From: Nitrosomonas sp.
GTDB lineage: Bacteria > Pseudomonadota > Gammaproteobacteria > Burkholderiales > Nitrosomonadaceae
Assembly (NCBI GenBank): GCA_021774055.1
Contig: JAJFJL010000254.1
Span: forward strand, 1 to 36,824
DNA length: 36,824 nt
Direction of reading: 5' to 3'
Positions 5,244-32,674 of this stretch are shown here, piece after piece (position 1 is the first letter of the stretch; each line of letters starts with the position of its first letter). The translations under genes and the position numbers were made by a program. Below the pieces are notes generated by a model. The model searched no databases, was not told the origin of the DNA, and was given only the letters and a program-made list of their open reading frames with translations.

Positions 5244-8138
5244 TCATGTACGTTCCTTAGTACACCAGGTTTTCCACATATTGCGATAAGCTTGTTCAAT
5301 CTTTAATGCAAAGCCTTCCTCATCTCTTAGTGGGCTATTTTCCATTTGATCACGTAAAGTAGCACGCACAGCTGACAAATGATTCAAATCACCTGCTAAT
5401 TCAACTGCTTTATTAATATAATCTTCTTCGCTTTCAGCTATCCATTCTGGGTGCCCTAGTCCGTGCAAAATACAACTGCCCAGACGTCCAACTGAAGGCC
5501 GCCCAGCTAACGTAATGTATGGTACACCCATGTACAATGTTTCAAACAAAGTGGCGCCAGAGTTATGTGGGAAACAATCCAAACCGATGTCGGTACTACG
5601 TAGCACATCCCACGGCGGGCTATGATAACCAATTTGTAATCTTTCCCTAGTAATACCATGTGCAGCAAATTTATCAGCAAACATATCCTGCATACACTTT
5701 CCAATGAAAGCTTTGCTATCAATTATCAACTGTGAGTTTTCTACCTGCTTAAGAATTTCCGACCAAACCCGAATTGTCCGGTAGTTAATGCGAATTGGGC
5801 GAGTTAATGTACCGAAGGTAACATATCCCTTGGTTGACGCTGGCAGAGCATTGACTTCTCCCATACCCTTAGCCGGTCGATAGCCAAAACTTGGTGTTGC
5901 AACTCTATAGGGTGTTTCAGAAAAAAGGTATTCGCTACCTGGTGGAACCGTAGCTATATCTGTTAAAAAATAGTCAATTGCTGTTAATCCAGTAGTATAA
6001 CCATACCCTAACCATGATATTGATACCGGCGCAGGTTTTCGGGCAAGTACTTGCAATCTGTTTTTTTCAGTATGACCCGCCAAGTCGATTAAAACATCAA
6101 TTCTATCTGTACGAATACGCTCAGCCAATGCACTGTCAGACATGCCATTAGTTAGAATCCAGTGATCTACATAGCCTTTCAAACGTTTGCTCACTAAGTC
6201 TTCTGTTGTCAGTTCTGCATAGGCATATACTTCAACGGCTTGTTTATTATGCCGAGACAACAAAGGTTCAATAAAATACTGTACAGAATGACTTCTGAAG
6301 TCTGAAGACACATATCCTATTTTCAGTCGGCGACTTATGCTACGATCATTATAATGATATTGCCAATCTTCTTTATGAGGCAAGCAATATTTTACATCGT
6401 ATTCTTGATAAACCTCGAATATCTCTTCTGCAGTCTTATCTGGATGATAATTTAGGATAAATAATAAATTATGGAAAGCAAAATCACCACCAGATTTAAC
6501 CTGGTTTAATTTAACTTCTAGCGCGTTACGGTAATAGGTCTCTGCTTCATCCAGTTGCCCCAGATTTTGTAACGTATTACCTAAATTATTAAGTACTTCC
6601 ACATTATTTGGCTTTATTTCTAGTGCTTTTAAGAAGCAGGTCTCAGCCTTATTAAACTGTGCTCGTTTTTGATAAACATTACCTAATGTCAGATATGATA
6701 ATGCATGGTTTGGATTTATTTTTAAAGCTTGGTTACAGCAAGCAATTGCTTCGTCTAGCCGCCCAAGTTCCTGCAAAACATTGCTCAAATTATTGTATGC
6801 GTTAATATAGTTTGGTTTAATTCTAAGCACATACCGGTAACTAGCTTCAGCTTCTTTAAAAAGATTGAGTGCTTGCAAAATAATCCCTAATGTATTATGT
6901 GCTTCAGCTGAATCTGGATTAATTTTTACTGCCTGATCGCAATAAATTTTTGCTTCGTCTAATCGTCCTAATTCCTGCAACGTATTACTCAAGTTATTGT
7001 ACGCATCAGCATAGTCAGGTTTGATTCGCAGTGCATGCTGAAAACTTATTTCCGCCTCTTTAAGAAGATTCCGTTCTTGCAAAATAACACCCAATGTATT
7101 AAGTGCCTTAGCTGAATCTGGATTTATCCGCAACGCCCTTCGACAACTTACTTCTGCTTCGTTATACCGCTTCAAGTCGTTTAGGGTGATAGCTAAATTA
7201 TTATGTATTTCATCGTTATCTGGCTCAAGTTCTGCCGCTGTTTGTAGAGGCAAAAGGGCACTCTCACTTTGTTCCATATGTTTTAATACAGAACCTAATA
7301 CTTTCCAACCAAAGGCATAATTAGGAAAATATTCTATCATTTGCTTGGCTAACCTTATGGCTTCCGTGTATTGCCCTTCATTAAACAAATTAACCAGCTC
7401 ATTTTTACGTGTTTCGACATTATCTGGTGCAAGCTCTATTACCTTTCGTAAAGGAGATAATGCCTCTTTATTTCTCCCTATCTGTTGGAGTGCTGTACCT
7501 AGCATTCTCCACCCAAAGGCATAGCTTGGATAATTCCTTGTCATTTTCTTGGCAAAAAATATAACCTTTGCATATTCTCCCCCGCTAAACAAATTAACTA
7601 GCGTATTGATCTCGTTAGATGAAGGTACTTTTATTTTGTGCAAAGAGTGTTTTTTATTAATTTCTGCTGTTTTATTCTTTAAGTCTATTTTTGCAACATA
7701 TAATAATTTTTCGGCAGGAAGCTGAGCCCATGATTGCTTTGCTCTTTGCATGTTATATTCTAAGCATTCAGCCAAAACAGTTAACATTTCCCCTTGTAAT
7801 CCATGTTGTTGTCCCACCTGCAGTACTTGCAAAGCAATTTCAGTTTTACCTGTCACTATTAACGCATCAATATAATTAAACCAATGCTCTGCTTGTTCTG
7901 GGTTTGCTTCTAATACAGTGCTGAATTGTTCCAGTCCCTCCGCAGCTAATTTAACCCGTTCTTTTAGTAGGCTTAGATTGTGGTGTACATCTGGATGATC
8001 AGGTTGAAATTGAAGAATAATACGATAAAGATATTCAGCATCCTGTAAATGACCAGCTTGGTGATGAGAGGCTGCTTTTTGGAAAGCTTGCTCAATAGTC
8101 ATTAATGTACCATCTTGTTTCAGTGTGTTTTGAGTCAC
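5244..8138 (-). CDS. TPR-repeat O-linked N-acetylglucosaminyltransferase / SPINDLY family glycosyltransferase (GT41-like)
   Basis: Many TPRs followed by RRLKIGYVSSDFRSHSV... IDVLIDLAGHT ... WLGYGYTTGLTAIDYFLTD ... DIGLDCFPHNSGATLFETLYMGVPYITLAG. Confidence 0.92.
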   Translation of the reverse strand: MTQNTLKQDGTLMTIEQAFQKAASHHQAGHLQDAEYLYRIILQFQPDHPDVHHNLSLLKERVKLAAEGLEQFSTVLEANPEQAEHWFNYIDALIVTGKTEIALQVLQVGQQHGLQGEMLTVLAECLEYNMQRAKQSWAQLPAEKLLYVAKIDLKNKTAEINKKHSLHKIKVPSSNEINTLVNLFSGGEYAKVIFFAKKMTRNYPSYAFGWRMLGTALQQIGRNKEALSPLRKVIELAPDNVETRKNELVNLFNEGQYTEAIRLAKQMIEYFPNYAFGWKVLGSVLKHMEQSESALLPLQTAAELEPDNDEIHNNLAITLNDLKRYNEAEVSCRRALRINPDSAKALNTLGVILQERNLLKEAEISFQHALRIKPDYADAYNNLSNTLQELGRLDEAKIYCDQAVKINPDSAEAHNTLGIILQALNLFKEAEASYRYVLRIKPNYINAYNNLSNVLQELGRLDEAIACCNQALKINPNHALSYLTLGNVYQKRAQFNKAETCFLKALEIKPNNVEVLNNLGNTLQNLGQLDEAETYYRNALEVKLNQVKSGGDFAFHNLLFILNYHPDKTAEEIFEVYQEYDVKYCLPHKEDWQYHYNDRSISRRLKIGYVSSDFRSHSVQYFIEPLLSRHNKQAVEVYAYAELTTEDLVSKRLKGYVDHWILTNGMSDSALAERIRTDRIDVLIDLAGHTEKNRLQVLARKPAPVSISWLGYGYTTGLTAIDYFLTDIATVPPGSEYLFSETPYRVATPSFGYRPAKGMGEVNALPASTKGYVTFGTLTRPIRINYRTIRVWSEILKQVENSQLIIDSKAFIGKCMQDMFADKFAAHGITRERLQIGYHSPPWDVLRSTDIGLDCFPHNSGATLFETLYMGVPYITLAGRPSVGRLGSCILHGLGHPEWIAESEEDYINKAVELAGDLNHLSAVRATLRDQMENSPLRDEEGFALKIEQAYRNMWKTWCTKERT

Positions 8139-8303
8139 AATTCACTTCTCGTTATGTATTACACCTTAGTTGTTGAAACAAGATATCTTTTAATCATTAC
8201 TAGCATTATCTACTATGAATAAATAGGATACTGAAGAAACAATCTTTTAAAAAAACTTAGCTATTTGATATTTATAGCCTATATTTTTGCAATTGGACAG
8301 TTA

Positions 8304-11300
8304 CTAATTTCCACGTCCCTTAGTACACCAAGTTTCCCACATAGTGCGATAAGCTTGTTCAACCTTTAATGCAAAACTTTTCTCGTCTCTTAGCGGGCTA
8401 TTTTCCATTTGATTACGTAAAGTAGCACGCACTACTGACAAATGATTTAAATCGCTTGCTAATTCAACTGCTTTATTAACATAATCTTCTTCGCTTTCAG
8501 CTATCCATTCTGAATGCCCTAGTCCGTGCAAAATACAACTGCCTAAACGCCCAACTGAAGGCCGTCCAGCTAATGTAATGTATGGTACGCCCATGTACAA
8601 TGTTTCAAATAAAGTGGCACCTGAGTTATGTGGAAAACAATCCAAACCGATATCGGTACTACGTAACACATCCCACGGCGGGCTATGATAACCAATTTGC
8701 AACCTTTCTCGAGTAATACCATGCGCTGCAAATTTATCTGCTAACATATCCTGCATATACTTTCCGCTGAAAGATCTGCTATCAATAATTAATTGTGAAT
8801 TTGGCACCTGTTTAAGAATTTCTGACCAGACTCGAATTGTCCGGTGATTGATACGCACTGGGCGAGTTAATGTACCGAAGGTAACATACCCCTTTGTTGA
8901 CGCTGGCAACACATTGACTTCTCCCATACCTTCAGCCGGTCGATAGCTAAAGCTTGGTGTTGCAATTCTATATGGCGTCTCGGAAAAAAGAGCTTCGCTG
9001 CCCAGCGGGACTGTAGTTATATCTGTTAAAAAATAATCAATTGCGGTTAATCCAGTAGTATAACCATACCCTAACCATGATATTGATACCGGCGTAGGTT
9101 TACGAGCAAATACTTGCAATCTAGTTTTTGCAGTATGCCCTGCCAAATCGACTAGTATATCAATATCATCAGCACGAATACGCTCTGTCAATGCAATGTC
9201 AGATACGCCTATAGTTGGAATCCAGTGATCCACATAGTCTTTGAAACGTGCACTCACTAAATCTTCTTTTGTAAGCTCCGCATAAGCATATACTTCAACA
9301 GCTTGTTTATTATGGTGAGCCAATAAGGGTTCAATAAAATAGTGTACAGAATGATTTCTGAAGTCCGGTGATACATAGCCTATTTTTAGTCGGCGTTGTA
9401 TATCGCGACTGTTGTTATGAGGTTGCCATTCAGCTTGGTGGAATAAGCAGTACTTATTGTTATATTCTTGATAAACTTTAAATATCTCTTCTGCAGTTTT
9501 ATCTGGATGGTAATTTATGGTAAACAATAAATTACGGAAAGCCAGATCATCACCAGATTCAATCTTCAATGCTTGTTGGAAGCAGGTTTCAGTTTCATCA
9601 AATCTTCCCAAGCGGTGTAATGTGTTACCTAAATTAATGTAAGCCAAAGCGCTGCCGGGGTCAATTTCTAATGCTTTCCTACAGCAAGCCTCCGCCTCAT
9701 CTAAGCGCCCTAAAATCTGTAGTGTGTTGCCTAAATTATGATAGGCAGAAACATCATTCGGCTTAGCCTCTATTACCTTCCTAAAGGATGATTCAGCTTT
9801 ATTTAATTTCCCAAGATCCTGCGAAACGTTACCCATCATTAACTGAGCCGAAATAAAATTTGGCTTGATTTCCAGTGTCTTACGATAGCAAGTCTCAGAT
9901 TCATCTAGTCGTCCTTGAGTTTGCAATATATTACCTAAATTATTATAGGCTTCTGCTAGATTCGGTTTTATTTTTATTGCCTGCACGAAGCATGCTTCAG
10001 CTTTATCCAATTGCTCAAGTTCTCGATAGATATTTCCTAATGTTAAGTGTGCTGATGCGTAATTTGGATCCACTTTTAACGCTTTATGGCAATAGTCTTT
10101 TGCTTCATCTAAACGCCCCTGTTCTTGAAGGGTATTACTTAAGTTATTGCACGCACCAGTATAATTTGGTTTTATCTGTAGTGCATGTTGATAGCTAGCT
10201 TCTGCTTCATCAAGACGATTAAGTGCTTGTAAAATAATCCCTAGTGTATTGTGTGTTTCTGCTGACTCTGGATCAAGCTGTAACGATCTTCGACAGCTTA
10301 TTTCCGCTTCTTTAGAGAATTCCAATTCGTTTAGGGTAATAGCCAAATTATTATGAGCTTCAGCATCATCTGGTGAAAACTCAACTGCTTTTTTAAGAGA
10401 AAGCAAGGCATCTTTACTTTGGTCTATCTGTTTTAGCACCGAACCTAGCACTTTCCAGCCAAATGCATAATTAGGGCAATCTTCTGTCATTTGCTTGGAT
10501 AACTGGATAACCTCTGTATATTTCCCTTTATTAAACAAATCAACCAATGTATTTTTACGTGTTTCGGCATCATCTGGCGCAAGCTTTACCACTTTTTGCA
10601 AAGGGAGTAACGCTTCTTTATTTCGCCCTGTTTGTTGCAGCGCTGTTCCTAGCATTCTCCAACCAAAAGCATAACCCGGGTAATTTTTTGTCATTTTCCT
10701 AGAAAGTGATATAACTTTTATATATTCTCCTTTGTTAAACAGATTAATTAGTACACTTGTTTGTTGAGATGAAGGTGTTTTTATTTTTTTTGATGAATAT
10801 TTTTTGCTCTGCTTAGTAGACTTGTCATTAGTTTTTATTACGTTGTTTTTTAAATTTATTTTTTCTATTTGCAATAATTCCTCGGCCGGAATCTGATTCC
10901 ATGATTGCTTCGCTCTTTGTCTATCATATTCTAAACGCTCAGCTAGGATAGATAACATTTCACCCTGTAATCCATGTTTCCGCCCCACTTGTAATACTTG
11001 TTGAGCAATCTCAATTTGACCGGTCACTAATAACGCATCAATATAGTTAAACCAATGTTCTGCTTGTTCTGGACTGGCTTCTAATACAGCGTTAAATTGC
11101 TCCAAACCCTGAGTAGCTAATTTAACTTGCTCTTCCAACAAACTTATGTTGTGCGGCACATCTGGATGATCAGGCTGAAATTGAAGAATAATACGATAAA
11201 GATATTCAGCATCTTGTAAATGACCAGCTTTATGATGAGTAACTGCTCTTTGGAAAGCTTGCTCAATAGTCATTAATGTACTTGGTGGTGGTTGCTGCAT

Positions 11301-11315
11301 CTTGGTGTCAGTCAT
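8304..11315 (-). CDS. Paralogous TPR-OGT / SPINDLY family glycosyltransferase
   Basis: Very similar N-terminus and C-terminal catalytic half to 5244-8138; different TPR number/sequence. Confidence 0.92.
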   Translation of the reverse strand: MTDTKMQQPPPSTLMTIEQAFQRAVTHHKAGHLQDAEYLYRIILQFQPDHPDVPHNISLLEEQVKLATQGLEQFNAVLEASPEQAEHWFNYIDALLVTGQIEIAQQVLQVGRKHGLQGEMLSILAERLEYDRQRAKQSWNQIPAEELLQIEKINLKNNVIKTNDKSTKQSKKYSSKKIKTPSSQQTSVLINLFNKGEYIKVISLSRKMTKNYPGYAFGWRMLGTALQQTGRNKEALLPLQKVVKLAPDDAETRKNTLVDLFNKGKYTEVIQLSKQMTEDCPNYAFGWKVLGSVLKQIDQSKDALLSLKKAVEFSPDDAEAHNNLAITLNELEFSKEAEISCRRSLQLDPESAETHNTLGIILQALNRLDEAEASYQHALQIKPNYTGACNNLSNTLQEQGRLDEAKDYCHKALKVDPNYASAHLTLGNIYRELEQLDKAEACFVQAIKIKPNLAEAYNNLGNILQTQGRLDESETCYRKTLEIKPNFISAQLMMGNVSQDLGKLNKAESSFRKVIEAKPNDVSAYHNLGNTLQILGRLDEAEACCRKALEIDPGSALAYINLGNTLHRLGRFDETETCFQQALKIESGDDLAFRNLLFTINYHPDKTAEEIFKVYQEYNNKYCLFHQAEWQPHNNSRDIQRRLKIGYVSPDFRNHSVHYFIEPLLAHHNKQAVEVYAYAELTKEDLVSARFKDYVDHWIPTIGVSDIALTERIRADDIDILVDLAGHTAKTRLQVFARKPTPVSISWLGYGYTTGLTAIDYFLTDITTVPLGSEALFSETPYRIATPSFSYRPAEGMGEVNVLPASTKGYVTFGTLTRPVRINHRTIRVWSEILKQVPNSQLIIDSRSFSGKYMQDMLADKFAAHGITRERLQIGYHSPPWDVLRSTDIGLDCFPHNSGATLFETLYMGVPYITLAGRPSVGRLGSCILHGLGHSEWIAESEEDYVNKAVELASDLNHLSVVRATLRNQMENSPLRDEKSFALKVEQAYRTMWETWCTKGRGN

Positions 11316-12315: not shown

Positions 12316-13785
12316 ATGCCTCAAATGATAAATTCCAACATATCCTCACTATCCGCACAACGTAACCTTAATACTTCACAAAGTGCATTGACAACCTCTT
12401 TAGAACGTTTGTCTTCTGGTCTACGGATTAATAGTGCGAAAGATGATGCTGCAGGATTGGCTATTTCTGAAAGAATGACCTCACAAATTCGTGGATTGAA
12501 TCAAGCTGCGCGAAATGCAAATGATGGTATTTCATTGGCACAAACAGCTGAAGGCGCGCTAGATGAGATTGGCAATAATTTACAACGTATCCGTGAGCTA
12601 GCGGTGCAGTCATCCAATGCAACCAATAGTGCCAGTGATCGAGCTGCATTACAGGCTGAAGTAACGCAATTATCTGCTGAGATAACTCGTGTTGCTGGCC
12701 AGACTGAGTTTAATGGAACAAGTCTTCTTGATGGGTCTTTCACTAATAAAAGCTTTCAGATAGGCGCTAATGCTAATCAAACAATTGATGTTCCACAGAT
12801 TGCTGATGCTCGCTCAGCTGCACTAGGTAACAATACACTAGATACAGACGGAAGTAAGGCAGGCACTACCATAGCTGCGGCCACAGATTTAGCAGCCGCC
12901 GCTTCTACTGCAGCTAATGTTCTTTTAGTAGAAACTGATTTACAACTGACCAATAATCAGGGCACGACCGGTCTTATTTCCTATGCTGCAGGGGCTAGTG
13001 CAGAGACGGTTGCTGGAGCAATCAATACTGCAGGAAACTCACTTGGTATTGAAGCAGAAGCTAGCAACACCACTACTATAGGAGGCCTGTCTGTTGGAGG
13101 TACAGTTGCTTTTAGCTTAAATGGTGAAGCAATATCAGCAGGTGTTTCAGATCCAGCTGATTTAACTAGTTTGGCTTCAGCAATTAACGGAAAAGCAAAT
13201 ACAACTGGGGTAACAGCTTCATTTCAAACGGATGGTGATAAAACCACCCTCACATTAACAAATGAAACTGGAGCAAACATTGCACTTGAAAATTTTGTTG
13301 GTGGTGTAACAGGAGATACAGCGACAGCCACTTTTGGAGGTCAAACACTAACAGAAGGGGCGGCTGATTCAGCAATAGCAAATGGAACAATTACGCTTTC
13401 AAGCGCAGATGGCTCCATTGCTGCAGCAAATGCCAACACTGACTTATTTACTGCAACTGTTAGTACATTTGGCGCTGTTGCTGACGTAGACATTTCAACA
13501 TCAGATGGTTCACAATCTGCAATTGATGTATTGGATGCAGCACTAGCCCAAGTTAATGATTCACGAGCTGATTTAGGTGCAGTTCAAAACCGCTTTTCTT
13601 CAACAGTCGCTAATTTGCAGAATACATCTGAAAACTTGTCTGCAGCACGAAGTCGAATACAAGACACTGATTTTGCATCAGAGACTGCCAGCTTGACAAG
13701 AGGACAGATTCTACAGCAGGCAGGGGTTGCAATGTTATCACAAGCTAATTCTCTACCGAATAATGTTCTTTCATTATTACGTTAA
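12316..13785 (+). CDS. fliC: Flagellin
   Basis: MPQMINSNISSLSAQRNLNTSQSALTTSLERLSSGLRINSAKDDAAGLAISERM and C-term AARSRIQDTDFASETASLTRGQILQQAGVAMLSQANSLPNNVLSLLR. Confidence 0.98.
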   Translation: MPQMINSNISSLSAQRNLNTSQSALTTSLERLSSGLRINSAKDDAAGLAISERMTSQIRGLNQAARNANDGISLAQTAEGALDEIGNNLQRIRELAVQSSNATNSASDRAALQAEVTQLSAEITRVAGQTEFNGTSLLDGSFTNKSFQIGANANQTIDVPQIADARSAALGNNTLDTDGSKAGTTIAAATDLAAAASTAANVLLVETDLQLTNNQGTTGLISYAAGASAETVAGAINTAGNSLGIEAEASNTTTIGGLSVGGTVAFSLNGEAISAGVSDPADLTSLASAINGKANTTGVTASFQTDGDKTTLTLTNETGANIALENFVGGVTGDTATATFGGQTLTEGAADSAIANGTITLSSADGSIAAANANTDLFTATVSTFGAVADVDISTSDGSQSAIDVLDAALAQVNDSRADLGAVQNRFSSTVANLQNTSENLSAARSRIQDTDFASETASLTRGQILQQAGVAMLSQANSLPNNVLSLLR

Positions 13786-13805
13786 GCTAAAAACAAGAAG
13801 TTAAT

Positions 13806-13847
13806 AGTGAGCAGATAGGTTAGTAGCAAAATGGCCTATCGCTCACT
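13806..13847 (+). terminator. Hairpin downstream of fliC
   Basis: AGTGAGCaGATAGG...CCTATCGCTCACT stem (one bulge) followed by TTAG; 21 nt after fliC stop. Confidence 0.6.
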
Positions 13848-13999
13848 TTAGTTAAATAAAACATTTCAAGATGTTAAATAAAAAGTAAACTTTTAGTTTC
13901 TTTGTTATGCAATACTAACACCTTGCTTTTTATCATTTAGTCCTGATGTGAAAATGATAAAGTAATGATACTTATCCATTTTCTTCAAGGAGTCATAAC

Positions 14000-14365
14000 A
14001 TGTCAATTGATCCATTAGCTGCATCGGGCAATCTACTACGGCAGCAATCGACACCAGAGCAAGTGTCAGCACCTCGTGTCAACAATATAACACCTCCGCC
14101 TACAGAGAAAGTACAAGCTGAATTGCCTACAGAGGCAGCCTCAAAAGAGGATATTCAACAAGCAGTTGAACAGATCCAACAAGTTACAGAAAGTCTGACA
14201 CAAAATTTACGATTTTCTATTGATGAAGATACCGGCATTACCGTTATTAAAGTGACTGATTCACAAACGCAAGAAGTGATACGTCAAATACCAACAGAAG
14301 AAGCGGTTTCCCTTGCACGTACCTTAGATAAGGTACAAGGCTTATTGTTTAGCGACAAAGCGTAA
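14000..14365 (+). CDS. flaG: Flagellar protein FlaG
   Basis: FlaG-like C-term LRFSIDEDTGITVIKVTDSQTQEVIRQIPTEEAVSLARTLDK; between fliC and fliD. Confidence 0.92.
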   Translation: MSIDPLAASGNLLRQQSTPEQVSAPRVNNITPPPTEKVQAELPTEAASKEDIQQAVEQIQQVTESLTQNLRFSIDEDTGITVIKVTDSQTQEVIRQIPTEEAVSLARTLDKVQGLLFSDKA

Positions 14366-14392
14366 TTTTAATCTTATAACAGGATAAAGAAA

Positions 14393-16372
14393 ATGCTTGC
14401 GACACCAGGAATTGGCTCAGGATTAGATATCAACAGCATTGTTGATCAGCTAATGGCGGTTGAAAGTAGACCACTGAATGTATTGGCTAGTAAAGAGGCT
14501 AAGCAACAATCCCAATTGAGTGCTTTTGGTAGCTTGAAAGGGGCACTATCTTCTTTTCAAACCAATGCACATACGTTATCTAATTCAACTAATTTTTCTG
14601 CAGTAAAAGCAAGTTTTTCTGACGATAGCATTGCATCTGTCAGTGCGACTTCAGCTGCTGTTGCTGGTAGTTTTTCAGTTGAAGTGCAAGACTTAGCACA
14701 AGCACAGAAGGTTAAATCTGGCAATTTTGCCTCGTCTACTGATACTGTGGGCAGTGGCTCACTGACTATTCAGTTTGGGACTTATAGTGGCGGTGCTTTT
14801 ACCCTTAACCCAGAGAAAGTAGCACAGTCAGTTACTATTTCTTCCGGACAATCTTCTTTATCCGGGGTACGTGATGCTATTAATGATGCAGATATTGGCA
14901 TTTCAGCTAGTATTGTTAACGATGGCAGCGGCAACCGATTGGTAGTGGCATCAAAAGATACTGGCTTGAGCAATGCGTTAAAAATCACAGTAACAGATGA
15001 TGATCTAGATAATACAGATAATGTCTCTGGTTTATCGCGACTAGCTTTTGATGCTTCTACCGGCGGCACTATGAATCTTACTGAGACAGTTGCTGCAAAA
15101 AATGCCGCATTGGTTATTGATGGCATTAATATCAGCAAATCATCCAATACAATCAGCGATGCCATTGAAGGGGTAACCTTAGATCTAAAAAAAGCAGATA
15201 TTGGCAATACATCAACTCTGACAGTGGCACGAGACACATCTAAAGTTCAGGCTTCGATAAAATCATTTGTAAGTGCTTTTAATGATCTTAATAACACCAT
15301 TAGTAACTTATCCAGATTTGACTCTGAGAATAATCGTGCATCTGTATTAACTGGAGATTCTACCGTAAGGTCGGTTCAATCGCAGTTACGCGGAGTATTT
15401 AACACCCCCTTATCAACAGCAGGCGGTGGCCTGACAACATTATCTGATATCGGCATTACATTTCAAAAAGATGGCACGCTTCAATTAGATTCAAGCAAGC
15501 TGGGCGAGGTTTTAAGTGATACTACTAAGGATGTGTCAACGTTATTTGCTGCTATTGCAAAAACAAATGATAGTTTAGTTTCATTTGTTGACTCTTCATT
15601 AGAAACGCAAAATGGTTCTTACGCTTTAAATATTACACAGCTTGCTACTCAGGGAAAAACAGATGGTAGTAGTGCTGCGGTATTAACAATTAATGCAGGC
15701 AGTAATGATGTGCTTAATTTTGATGTTGATGGTATCAGTGCCAGCATCACCTTAGCAGCCGCCACTTATACAGCTGACAGCTTGTCTGCAGAAATACAAT
15801 CTAAAATTAATGGTGCAACTGCTATTAAGGATGCAGGTGTTAGTGTAAGTGTTACACAGTCAACTGGTATATTAAGCATTACTTCTGACAGTTATGGTTC
15901 AGATTCAACGGCATCCGTAACTAGCGGGACCGGGTTAACTGATTTATTTGGCACCCCAGTTGACGCGGATGGCGTTGATGTTGCTGGTACCATTGGCGGC
16001 GCTACTGCAACAGGTTCAGGCCAAACGCTTACTGGCGCAGGTGGCAGCAGTGGTTTAGTACTGGAAATAACCGGCGGGGCTGTTGGTGACCGTGGCAGCG
16101 TAGACTTTGCACGCGGATTTGCGGTTAAACTTGATAAATTAATAGAAAGCATGCTGGAAAACGACAGCTTGATTGATAGTCGTATTGATGGCATTAATTC
16201 AACAATTAAAGATATTGGCAATCAGCGTGAATCAATTGGCCGTCGCTTGGAAAGTACGGAAAGTAGAATCCGCGCACAATTTACATCATTGGATATTTTA
16301 GTTGCTAGCATGACCCAAACTAGTAATTTTTTGCAACAACAATTGGCTAGCCTGCCAAAAATAGGTAGCTAA
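14393..16372 (+). CDS. fliD: Flagellar hook-associated protein 2 (filament cap)
   Basis: GIGSGLDINSIVDQLMAVESRPLNVLASKEA, C-term RLESTESRIRAQFTSLDILVASMTQTSNFLQQQLASL. Confidence 0.96.
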   Translation: MLATPGIGSGLDINSIVDQLMAVESRPLNVLASKEAKQQSQLSAFGSLKGALSSFQTNAHTLSNSTNFSAVKASFSDDSIASVSATSAAVAGSFSVEVQDLAQAQKVKSGNFASSTDTVGSGSLTIQFGTYSGGAFTLNPEKVAQSVTISSGQSSLSGVRDAINDADIGISASIVNDGSGNRLVVASKDTGLSNALKITVTDDDLDNTDNVSGLSRLAFDASTGGTMNLTETVAAKNAALVIDGINISKSSNTISDAIEGVTLDLKKADIGNTSTLTVARDTSKVQASIKSFVSAFNDLNNTISNLSRFDSENNRASVLTGDSTVRSVQSQLRGVFNTPLSTAGGGLTTLSDIGITFQKDGTLQLDSSKLGEVLSDTTKDVSTLFAAIAKTNDSLVSFVDSSLETQNGSYALNITQLATQGKTDGSSAAVLTINAGSNDVLNFDVDGISASITLAAATYTADSLSAEIQSKINGATAIKDAGVSVSVTQSTGILSITSDSYGSDSTASVTSGTGLTDLFGTPVDADGVDVAGTIGGATATGSGQTLTGAGGSSGLVLEITGGAVGDRGSVDFARGFAVKLDKLIESMLENDSLIDSRIDGINSTIKDIGNQRESIGRRLESTESRIRAQFTSLDILVASMTQTSNFLQQQLASLPKIGS

Positions 16373-16872: not shown

Positions 16873-17301
16873 ATGTTTGCTGCACTAAATAATCCAATTG
16901 CCGCTTATCAGACTACTGGTGTTGAATCTGGAGTTGAGTCTGCTGATCCACATAAATTGATATTGATGTTATTTGAGGGCGCACAACAAGCCTTAGCAAA
17001 AGCTAAACTACATATGCAATACAATGAAATTGCAGCCAAAGGGGCTATGATTTCGAAAGCAATTATGATTATTGATCATGGTCTTAAAGCTAGCCTTGAT
17101 ATGGAGGCAGGTGGTGAAATTTCAGAAAACCTTTTTAGTCTCTATGAATATATGGTGCAGCGTTTATTAGTTGCTAATCTAGAAAATGACCCAGAAATAA
17201 TTAACGAAGTTAATAAGCTGTTATATGAATTATATGAAGCGTGGGAAATGATAGGTAAAAATAAAACTACAGATTTGGCATTACATGCCGTTACAAGCTA
17301 A
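16873..17301 (+). CDS. fliS: Flagellar export chaperone FliS
   Basis: YQTTGVESGVESADPHKLILMLFEGAQQALAKAK...; position after fliD. Confidence 0.95.
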   Translation: MFAALNNPIAAYQTTGVESGVESADPHKLILMLFEGAQQALAKAKLHMQYNEIAAKGAMISKAIMIIDHGLKASLDMEAGGEISENLFSLYEYMVQRLLVANLENDPEIINEVNKLLYELYEAWEMIGKNKTTDLALHAVTS

Positions 17302-17330: not shown

Positions 17331-17672
17331 ATGATGATGAACGGTGAGCAGGTAATTACTACATATGAGTCCATATTAAGCACGACAGGAGAAATGCTTA
17401 CGGCCGCTCAGAATAATGAATGGGATAGGCTGATTGCACTGGAGAAAGAATGTAGAGCGCTAACTGACAAGCTTATTCATAATAAGCCTGAGCAGAAATT
17501 AAATGCTGAATTTCAGCAAAAAAAAGTAGCCATTATTCACCAGGTGTTAGCGCATGACGCGCAAATTCGGGAAATTACCGAGCCCTGGATGATGCGACTA
17601 CAGAATATTCTTAACACCGCTGGGCATAAACGCAACTTACAACAAGCCTATCAAAATGGCAGTTATACCTAA
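17331..17672 (+). CDS. fliT: Flagellar protein FliT-like
   Basis: Small helical protein YESILSTTGEMLTAAQNNEWDRLIALEKECRALTDKL directly after fliS. Confidence 0.8.
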   Translation: MMMNGEQVITTYESILSTTGEMLTAAQNNEWDRLIALEKECRALTDKLIHNKPEQKLNAEFQQKKVAIIHQVLAHDAQIREITEPWMMRLQNILNTAGHKRNLQQAYQNGSYT

Positions 17673-17697
17673 GATTGAGTTGGTTTTTGACTCACAC

Positions 17698-17747
17698 CTA
17701 AGTTCTGCAAACAATAACGCAGGCACAGTTGTTTACAGAACTTAGGT
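17698..17747 (+). terminator. 18-bp stem hairpin (one mismatch, 14-nt loop) followed by TTTTG; possible terminator
   Basis: CCTAAGTTCTGCAAACAA / TTGTTTACAGAACTTAGG. Confidence 0.5.
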
Positions 17748-17823
17748 TTTGTGTGCTTGTGTGATTAAGACCCAAACATACTCACCGAATTTTCTTTCCT
17801 TTTTTAGAGTCAGTTGAATTGTT

Positions 17824-19533
17824 GTGATTCCGACTACTATCAAAACTGATGCAACGTCACATTCGCCAAATATAGGTCCGGTTGCACCTATAACACCGGT
17901 AACTGCTGCTAGTGATTCACTACATTCAAACCTCACCTTGGGACAAAAATACCAAGCAATTGTTGATGTACGACTAGCAAATGGTGCGGCCAGAGTTTTA
18001 ATTGCAGGACGGCCTTTGCAAATAAATCTTCCTAAAGATATTCTTTCTGGAAATGAAATAGAACTGGTACTTGTCGCCAAGGAACCAAAGTTAAAATTTC
18101 TACTGCAAGATAATATTTCAAAAACTGGCGAGGCGTTACTATCATCAAAATCAGGTTCAGCCACTCCAATAACAGCTACATCAGCAACGTTGCAAAATAA
18201 TATTTCCAAAACTAGCGAGGCATTACTATCATCAAAATCAAGTTCAGCTACTCCAATAACAGCTACATCAGCAACGTTACAAAGTAATATTTCCAAAACT
18301 AGCGAGGCATTACTATCATCAAAATCAAGTTCAGCCACTCCAGTAACAGCTACATCAACAACGTTACAAAGTAATATTTCCAAAACTAGCGAAGCATTAC
18401 TATCATCAAAATCAGGTTCAACCACGCCAATAACAGCTACATCAGCAACGTTACAAAGTAATATTTCCAAAACTAGCGAAGCATTACTATCATCAAAATC
18501 AGGTTCAACCACTCCAATAACAGCTACATCAGCAACGTTACAAAGTAATATTTCCAAAACTAGCGAAACATTACTATCATCAAAATCAGGTTCAACCACT
18601 CCAATAACAGCTACTCCAGATTTAACCCAACCAGATCTCGATTTCACCTTGGGTCAAAAATATCAAGCAGTCGTTGATACACGACTAGCAAACGGCAATA
18701 CCAGGGTTTTAATTGCAGAGCATTCATTACAGATGAATCTCTCCAAAGATATTCTTTCTGGAAGTAAAATAGAACTTGTATTTATTGCTAAAGAGCCAAA
18801 TTTAAAATTTTTACTACAAAACAACACTTCTTTAGATAAAAGCAAAGGTTCGGCTGTTATTAGCTCAACCGGAAGCCTTATTGGTTCGTTAGCACAAGGC
18901 ATCGCAAAATCACCTGCATCGCAACCCCTAATCAGTACAACACCTATTTTGACAAGTCCACCAACAAATAGCGCGGAAACCTCCGTTTTATTACAAAAAA
19001 CATTATCTCAAAGTGGGTTATTCTATGAGTCACATCAGTCACAATGGTTGGTTGGAGAAAAAACATTAATACAATTGAAACAAGAGCCTCAAGGTAAACT
19101 AGTCATTGCGTCAGGTTCCACCAATATCTCCGCTACTGTATTAAACAGTGATACACCTGCTAACACACAAAACTTGCCTTTAGTACAACAACAGCTTGCT
19201 GTACTGGAAACAAATCATTTGGCTTGGCATGGGGAGATATGGCCTAAGCAGATAATGGAATGGGAGGTTCTTGAAAAGAAGTCAGATGGAAACAAATCAG
19301 AAGAAGATGAACAACCAACTCCATGGCAAACAAAATTACGCCTTGATTTGCCAAAACTAGGTGAAGTTTCTGCTACTATTATGTTTAATTCTGGTAATGT
19401 GCGTATTAAGATTCATACCAACACTGAAACCACAAAATTATTAAAAAACAACCAGCCACAGCTAACAACTGCCATGAATATAGCAGGCTTGAATGTTCAA
19501 GCGGTAGAGGTATTTCATGATGATGAAAAATGA
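17824..19533 (+). CDS. fliK: Flagellar hook-length control protein (FliK-like) with internal tandem repeats
   Basis: C-term LRLDLPKLGEVSATIMFNSGNVRIKIHTNTETTKLLKNNQPQLTTAMNIAGLNVQAVEVF resembles FliK Flg_hook domain; GTG start; followed by FlhB-like gene. Confidence 0.85.
   Translation: MIPTTIKTDATSHSPNIGPVAPITPVTAASDSLHSNLTLGQKYQAIVDVRLANGAARVLIAGRPLQINLPKDILSGNEIELVLVAKEPKLKFLLQDNISKTGEALLSSKSGSATPITATSATLQNNISKTSEALLSSKSSSATPITATSATLQSNISKTSEALLSSKSSSATPVTATSTTLQSNISKTSEALLSSKSGSTTPITATSATLQSNISKTSEALLSSKSGSTTPITATSATLQSNISKTSETLLSSKSGSTTPITATPDLTQPDLDFTLGQKYQAVVDTRLANGNTRVLIAEHSLQMNLSKDILSGSKIELVFIAKEPNLKFLLQNNTSLDKSKGSAVISSTGSLIGSLAQGIAKSPASQPLISTTPILTSPPTNSAETSVLLQKTLSQSGLFYESHQSQWLVGEKTLIQLKQEPQGKLVIASGSTNISATVLNSDTPANTQNLPLVQQQLAVLETNHLAWHGEIWPKQIMEWEVLEKKSDGNKSEEDEQPTPWQTKLRLDLPKLGEVSATIMFNSGNVRIKIHTNTETTKLLKNNQPQLTTAMNIAGLNVQAVEVFHDDEK
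18112..18616 (+). repeat. Six tandem 87-bp repeats (29 aa, QSNISKTSEALLSSKSGSTTPITATSATL) inside fliK
   Basis: AATATTTC.AAAAC starts at 18112, 18199, 18286, 18373, 18460, 18547, i.e. exact 87-bp period. Confidence 0.97.
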
Positions 19534-19807
19534 AACGATTCAATCTGCTGTTGCACTTGCTTACCGCAGTGGTTTTTCAGTACCAAAGGTTGTCGCTAAA
19601 GGTAGAGGGGTTACTGCTGAAGAGATAATTAAACGCGCCAAAGAGTCGGGTATTTATGTTCATGAATCTTCAGAGTTAGTAGCATTGTTAATGCAAGTTA
19701 ACTTAGATGACCATATACCGCCGCAACTTTATAGAGCGGTTGCCGAATTACTTGCCTGGCTTTATCAACTAGAACAAGAACAATCGGATATTAATGGAAC
19801 CAATTAA
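19517..19807 (+). CDS. FlhB C-terminal-domain-like protein (EscU/YscU/HrcU-type switch domain only)
   Basis: SAVALAYRSGFSVPKVVAKGRGVTAEEIIKRAKESGIYVHESSELVALLMQVNLDDHIPPQLYRAVAELLAWLY. Confidence 0.88.
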   Translation: MMMKNETIQSAVALAYRSGFSVPKVVAKGRGVTAEEIIKRAKESGIYVHESSELVALLMQVNLDDHIPPQLYRAVAELLAWLYQLEQEQSDINGTN

Positions 19808-30796: not shown

Positions 30797-32674
30797 ATGA
30801 ACAAAAACTCTAATCCATCCATCATTGCCCGTGAAACTTTACGTCAACTAGCAATGCTTAAAATGGCTCCAACACCAGATAATTATCAAAAACTTTATGA
30901 TGAAATGGCTGAAACACCAGCTAGTTACATGCATACTAGTACAGTTAAAGCACTTACTGAATTAGCTAACGAATTTCCACGTAATACACCAGAACTTGTA
31001 ACTTGTGCGAATCAATTAGAGTCAGCAACCAACGAAAGAAACTGGGAAAAATATCATGCCACCTTAATCAACTTTATTAAACATACTGCACTATCTACTA
31101 AACCTATAGAGAAATCTACAGAAACAACACCAAAGGCTAATGCAGCATGGGGAGAAACTATTTCTCTACTTTTGAAACAACTTGACATAAATAATGGCTC
31201 ATTAACCATTGCCAAAAAACGTGAGGGCTTAAATCGAGTATTAAGCCGGTTTTCAGCAGAGCCAACAAAACTACATGATAAGCTATCATCATTAATTGAT
31301 TCTTGGGCATTAGCACCAACCATCACCCAAGAATCATTAGCACCAACCATCACCCAAGAAAATAGTACTGAAACAATCAGTGAACTGTCACCCTCAACAA
31401 GTTCAATTGACGCAATCACTGCATCAACCTCAACAGCCACTTCAACAAAAAAACCAGCAATAATCATACCAAATCAATTGCAAGAATTACTGGTACAAAT
31501 ATTACAACAGATTACCGCACAACCATTAAATAACCACCAATTAATTGAGGAAGCAAATACACTCGCAACACAAGTATCACTTATCGATAGTGAAGACAGG
31601 CTGACTCAGTTCATTAATGGCACAAAGGAATTTAGTAACAAACTTGTCTCGCATGGTAAGAATAATACGCAACTGCAAAAAAGATTACTCCAATTATTTA
31701 ATTTGTTAATGGATAGAACCAGTGAGCTACTCTCTGGTGACAAATGGTTGCAAGATAAACTTGCATTATTAAGAAACACTCTATCCAACAACATTGACTT
31801 GCAAGCAATTGATCAAGCAGAATATTATTTAAAAGAAATAGTAACAAAGCAAATTACTGTCAAACAGAGCCTAGAAGAGACCAAAACAACATTAAAACGA
31901 ATGGTCACTAGTCTAATCAACAATATCGAAGAATTATCTGATTCAACTGGTAATTATCATAATAAGATTGAACATTATGCTGAAACAATCAATCAAACTG
32001 AAGATATCTCAACCTTAAGCCAACTTGTAATGGATATCGCATCTGAAACCAAGAAAATGCAAGCAGATGTACTAAATTCTCGCAATGATTTTTTAGCAGC
32101 CCGCACAGAAGTAGATATTGCCCAAAATAAAATTCATGAATTAGAATCTGAATTACAACAAATGGGAGAACAAGCACATGAAGATCATCTAACCGGAATT
32201 TTGAATCGACGTGGACTTGATAACGCATTCAAACGTGAATTAGAGCATTCTAAAGAACTGCATACTTCAATATGCTTAGCTTTAATTGACATTGATAACT
32301 TTAAAAAATTTAATGATACGCATGGCCATAAAGTTGGAGATGATGTATTGGTTTATCTAGCAGAAACTATGAAAGAAACAACCAGACCTGAAGATATTGT
32401 CGCTCGTTTTGGCGGAGAAGAATTTGTTATTCTTTTACCAGATACTGAGATAAATGAAGCAGTATCAATTGTATCAAGAGTACGACGTAATCTTACTAAA
32501 CATTTCTTTCTACATCAAAATAACCGTCTATTGATAACTTTTAGTGCCGGAGTTGCAGAACATCAATTAGGAGAAACACAAGAAAATATACTTGTAAGAG
32601 CGGACAAAGCACTCTATCAAGCAAAAAATAACGGTAAAAATCAAGTCATCGCTGCTGCTGCTCCACCAAGCTAA
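30797..32674 (+). CDS. GGDEF diguanylate cyclase with long N-terminal helical region
   Basis: EDHLTGILNRRGLDNAF...RPEDIVARFGGEEFVILLP (I-site RxxD and GGEEF). Confidence 0.93.
   Translation: MNKNSNPSIIARETLRQLAMLKMAPTPDNYQKLYDEMAETPASYMHTSTVKALTELANEFPRNTPELVTCANQLESATNERNWEKYHATLINFIKHTALSTKPIEKSTETTPKANAAWGETISLLLKQLDINNGSLTIAKKREGLNRVLSRFSAEPTKLHDKLSSLIDSWALAPTITQESLAPTITQENSTETISELSPSTSSIDAITASTSTATSTKKPAIIIPNQLQELLVQILQQITAQPLNNHQLIEEANTLATQVSLIDSEDRLTQFINGTKEFSNKLVSHGKNNTQLQKRLLQLFNLLMDRTSELLSGDKWLQDKLALLRNTLSNNIDLQAIDQAEYYLKEIVTKQITVKQSLEETKTTLKRMVTSLINNIEELSDSTGNYHNKIEHYAETINQTEDISTLSQLVMDIASETKKMQADVLNSRNDFLAARTEVDIAQNKIHELESELQQMGEQAHEDHLTGILNRRGLDNAFKRELEHSKELHTSICLALIDIDNFKKFNDTHGHKVGDDVLVYLAETMKETTRPEDIVARFGGEEFVILLPDTEINEAVSIVSRVRRNLTKHFFLHQNNRLLITFSAGVAEHQLGETQENILVRADKALYQAKNNGKNQVIAAAAPPS
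31310..31361 (+). repeat. Two-copy 27-bp tandem repeat within GGDEF gene (LAPTITQES / LAPTITQEN)
   Basis: TTAGCACCAACCATCACCCAAGAA repeated twice. Confidence 0.9.

Follow-up and report, generated by a model that had tools for sequence, protein, structure and literature searches.

The repeat-bearing fliK2 gene of this Nitrosomonas sp. (17824..19533, plus strand) probably does not set hook length. We analysed a window of 36,824 nucleotides, positions 1 to 36,824 of contig JAJFJL010000254.1 (C173), and a profile search of the same genome, a 256-contig, 84%-complete draft, revealed two Flg_hook genes. On the reading we favour, which we hold at about even odds, FliK2 would be an accessory FliK paralogue that partners the neighbouring FhlB and carries an array of disordered-linker repeats, and the canonical FliK encoded on another contig would measure the hook. 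The first-pass annotation had named the window gene FliK, the hook-length ruler. The FliK-type domain stood, but the ruler role was not supported, since the window protein is a tail-less paralogue coupled to fhlB and a canonical FliK gene precedes fliL-fliR elsewhere. A FliK-domain gene with repeats need not be a hook ruler, and a natural misreading is hereby corrected.

We defined fliK2 by its open reading frame, a Pfam search, a genome profile search and an orthologue alignment; the open frame spans 571 residues, or 569 aa when read from a GTG taken provisionally as the start. The results showed a C-terminal T3S4/Flg_hook domain (PF02120; 19174..19521, plus strand) without the FliK C-terminal tail, which scored 58 bits in Pfam (residues 493-568; cut-off 29.8), and the protein gave profile matches to 2RRL and 5CUK. 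Modelling with AlphaFold and 57 relatives yielded confident beta-barrel modules at residues 25-95 and 261-332, no structure across the array (pLDDT ~30-38) and a C-terminal domain at residues 451-566 with pLDDT above 90 over most of its length; the array is predicted to be disordered. The top Foldseek match of the C-terminal domain was 5CUK, the PscP switch (SS) domain (E 0.003, TM 0.61 by target length), so that the injectisome rulers YscP/PscP offer the nearest solved fold. Matches below 5CUK, to lactamases, initiation factors and toxins, were weak and were taken as chance fold similarity.

We compared this protein with the product of the other Flg_hook gene, the canonical FliK (FliK1). The canonical fliK lies on contig C210 and is followed by fliL, fliM, fliN, fliO, fliP, fliQ and fliR (names assigned from sequence and order), which is also the order fliK-fliL-fliM-fliN-fliO-fliP of E. 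coli; the window gene sits between fliT and fhlB, the position before fliL-fliM being held by its C210 paralogue. The canonical protein matched the Salmonella FliK structure 2RRL at 2.6e-18, and its C-terminus reads VVNTFA, that of E. coli FliK GVDIFA. Both Flg_hook genes were present in nearly all flagellated congeners searched. Every complete canonical FliK frame ended in a switch tail, (V/I)(N/D)(T/I)(F/Y)A, which was found in none of 108 complete FliK2 orthologue frames (gathered by two fetching routes and including some duplicates) and likewise not in the window protein. FliK2 ends about 40-50 residues short of canonical FliK, with the T3S4 core kept. In Salmonella FliK, control of the switch is reported to lie with the C-terminal tail (PMC6972891); FliK acts on the cleaved domain of FlhB, and its last five residues are the proposed effectors (PMC13344023). 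FliK2 resembles the FliK of Salmonella and E. coli in its C-terminal T3S4/Flg_hook fold, its multi-domain build and its flexible linker, but differs in lacking a tail ending (V/I)(D/N)xFA, in not standing before fliL, in its FliK2-specific N-terminal barrel and in coexisting with a canonical FliK.

The start of fhlB (19517..19807, plus strand) overlaps the end of fliK2. Its product is a stand-alone homologue of the FlhB C-terminal domain (PF01312 model positions 261-335 of 335; TIGR00789, 85 bits) and comprises the cleaved domain alone, with neither the membrane part nor the NPTH motif; full-length FlhB is encoded on another contig. Upstream lie the late filament genes fliC, flaG and fliD of the same cluster (12316..16372, plus strand; open frames named by sequence and order, the order being conserved in relatives), fliS (16873..17301, plus strand; profile matches) and fliT (17331..17672, plus strand; PF05400, 87.5 bits). 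Across 80 loci fetched from Nitrosomonas and related groups, fhlB followed FliK2 in 79, and the one exception was a contig that ends just past FliK2. The upstream order fliC-flaG-fliD-fliS-fliT was usual in Nitrosomonas loci and missing in several Sulfuricella and other loci. One congener (G047, 91% complete) has FliK1 and FlhB and is missing both FliK2 and FhlB, a co-loss that concerns this single incomplete genome. These loci bring to light a conserved FliK2-FhlB pair. A literature search found no experimental work on FliK2 or FhlB of this lineage, and searches for ylqG/ylqH and for FliK in Nitrosomonas returned no evidently relevant paper. Separately, a strong inverted repeat at 17693-17750, between fliT and fliK2 (ACCTAAGTTCTG / CAGAACTTAGGT, then TTTT; -24.4 kcal/mol, z -2.6), is possibly a terminator parting fliK2-fhlB from the late genes.

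By the precedent of the FliK C-domain and the FlhB cleaved domain, the T3S4 core of FliK2 would bind FhlB (or FlhB), and this binding may modulate or back up the export-specificity switch, with hook measuring done by the canonical FliK. A 2026 paper makes the case for the FlhB cleaved domain as a lock that FliK removes (PMC13344023); a genome with a spare copy of the lock beside a tail-less FliK is a natural testing place for that model. The window FhlB is like the stand-alone FlhB C-terminal domains of the FhlB/FlhX/HP1575 type in consisting of the cleaved domain only. Unlike in the FlhX/HP1575 type, the gene here stands next to one of FliK type, within a cluster of late filament genes, and its function is putative. 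For Helicobacter, HP1575 has been reported to be a spare part for this domain, according to the title of Wand et al. 2006 (cited in PMC3040844).

We characterised the array (18111..18614, plus strand) by TRF, unit register and shuffled controls. TRF returned a period of 87 with 5.8 copies, 95% matches, 0% indels and a score of 882, against a best score of 66 among 500 dinucleotide shuffles of the fliK2 gene. Six 87-bp (29-aa) units start in register at 18112, 18199, 18286, 18373, 18460 and 18547, in agreement with the period and copy number that the first-pass annotation had given, and the whole array lies in frame inside the open reading frame 17824-19533, which bears out its remark that all changes are in frame. 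Units 1-5 differ pairwise by 1 to 8 per 87 bases, units 4 and 5 by 1 of 87. Unit 6 equals units 4 and 5 over about 68 bases, after which the sequence is already the flank of module 2; the earlier description of the last three units as nearly identical therefore holds for units 4 and 5 but not for unit 6 beyond its first ~68 bases. Six copies are credible because the longest exact repeat within the array, 67 bp, is resolvable by short-read assembly, with the count read as an assembly count in which additional identical copies may have collapsed. No further 87-bp array was found in the searched 84%-complete draft. A hairpin of the 87-bp unit was considered as a driver of slippage and rejected, its DNA fold being no better than that of shuffles. 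An antisense open frame that covers the array (17742-18647; 301 aa) was dismissed as mirroring the repeat.

Two copies of a beta-barrel module flank the array. Copy 1 is N-terminal (17896..18114, plus strand; core 17932-18114), was modelled at residues 25-95 with a block pLDDT of ~67-91 and matched a FliK2-specific module HMM at open-frame residues 41-97; copy 2 (18604..18825, plus strand; core 18643-18825) was delimited by the orthologue alignment, AlphaFold and the module HMM. The cores, ~61 aa each, are identical at 142 of 183 bases (78%) and 45 of 60 residues, confirming the duplication of ~60-aa modules proposed before, and they are each other's closest relatives, the nearest orthologue sharing 41 of 60 residues. 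The module HMM was positive in 109 of 109 FliK2 proteins and in 0 of 31 FliK1 proteins, and within the FliK2 set two clear copies were found in the window protein only; a weak second match in L139 looks like one domain split in two. FliK2 orthologues have a single module without the repeat, and the alignment showed that copy 2 holds the place of this single module.

The alignment also revealed that a relative (L027, the same as L064) carries a 17-aa insertion at the point of the array, with an echo of the module end; this site therefore seems prone to insertion. The 29-aa unit itself looks like the tail that follows a module fused to the head that precedes one, which suggests that the junction of the duplicated module was later multiplied, a step we infer from the composition of the unit. 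We regard a lineage-specific module duplication with expansion of a disordered linker, in an accessory FliK2-FhlB pair, as the best reading, although it is as open to being wrong as to being right. The N-terminal barrel would have been duplicated once this lineage had split from the sampled relatives, and the tail-head junction between the barrels would then have grown into six 29-aa disordered-linker units by slippage or unequal recombination. The array would probably lengthen a tolerated flexible spacer, and hook length need not change.

We measured FliK lengths across the genus. FliK2 frames in congeners ranged from 333 to 405 aa, apart from one short frame of 206 aa; the 569-571 aa of the window protein make it the sole long FliK2, and the array was missing from all other congeners examined, each species being represented by one genome. 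The coefficient of variation was 3% for FliK2 versus 9% for FliK1 (Brown-Forsythe p 1.9e-5), a difference that is not decisive, as tight length could also reflect a ruler constraint. No correlation between FliK1 and FliK2 length was found across congeners (rho 0.11, p 0.45). That the array is unique and predicted to be unstructured, and that FliK2 is missing from one congener, would agree with a reading in which the gene is dispensable or decaying and the module duplication and array arose by neutral drift, with no effect on function. We consider such drift somewhat unlikely, as the frame is intact across modules, array and T3S4 domain, every 87-bp step is in frame, and both modules are confidently modelled.

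The canonical fliK carries repeats of its own. A 54-bp (18-aa) array of at least 8.7 copies with 91% matches lies N-terminal to the switch domain (L146, on C210, 1-468), and contig C210 starts within it at an assembly break. A search of the rest of the assembly did not turn up the 5' end of this gene, but the N-terminal query is poorly conserved and absence is not proven. Since the canonical FliK has such an array of its own at an assembly break, the idea of length tuning suits it better than FliK2. Length tuning might then be real in this species but act through the 54-bp array, the window array being incidental in a genome prone to repeats. The greater variability of FliK1 length across the genus (367-538 aa) speaks for this, but the full length of the gene is not measurable with its 5' end missing, and FliK1 repeats in other congeners are short or weak only; we judge it quite unlikely. 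To return to the accessory FliK2-FhlB pair, a wider version is a doubtful one: Nitrosomonas and related Nitrosomonadales would possess a second, tail-less switch pair (FliK2 and a free FlhB cleaved domain) beside FliK-FlhB, and both FliKs of this species would have gained repeats independently, with spacer lengths evolvable by copy number. Since the two FliK proteins of a single species both have repeats, length tuning becomes concretely testable.

The first-pass annotation had proposed that the FliK of the window works as the hook ruler and that slippage or recombination may change the number of its 87-bp units and so tune hook length between strains or cells; its T3S4 domain, the in-frame array with near-identical neighbouring units, the lengthening of Salmonella hooks by ruler insertions (PMC6972891) and the YscP repeat number, which differs among Yersinia enterocolitica strains, YscP size correlating with needle length (PMC3469391), would favour this, but we find it very improbable, given that a canonical FliK encoded on another contig bears the switch tail that the window protein lacks, that no other congener has the array, and that the differences among units 1-5 mark an array not freshly homogenised throughout. 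For 40 added residues, PMC6972891 predicts a hook of about 70 nm rather than 55 nm; were the window protein the ruler, its roughly 220 additional residues would be expected to give a far longer hook. YscP is like the window protein in having in-frame repeats, and their number varies naturally between strains (PMC3469391). The YscP repeats, however, alter an established ruler, whereas the window repeat lies in a flagellar paralogue whose ruler role is only putative.

Further Flg_hook matches were seen in some congeners. A third, weak Flg_hook match in a short frame (154-158 aa) occurred in three of them (G045:C1:156776-156907; G053:C1:2017650-2017778, L162; G049:C82:13364-13495), and one congener (G040) has two FliK2 genes, at G040:C19:68199-69143 and G040:C2:152178-153128, with frames of 347 and 377 aa. 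In one Sulfuricella genome, a CRISPR-like array with a 61-bp period (L115:5-2901) lies upstream of FliK2. Elsewhere in the window, two exact 27-bp copies at 31308-31360 fall within the open reading frame 30797-32674, the C-terminal part of which is GGDEF-like. Near fliC, two adjacent and similar minus-strand proteins (5244-11315) showed, by eye, TPR-like repeats and an O-GlcNAc-transferase-like end, and flagellin glycosylation is a possible function for them.
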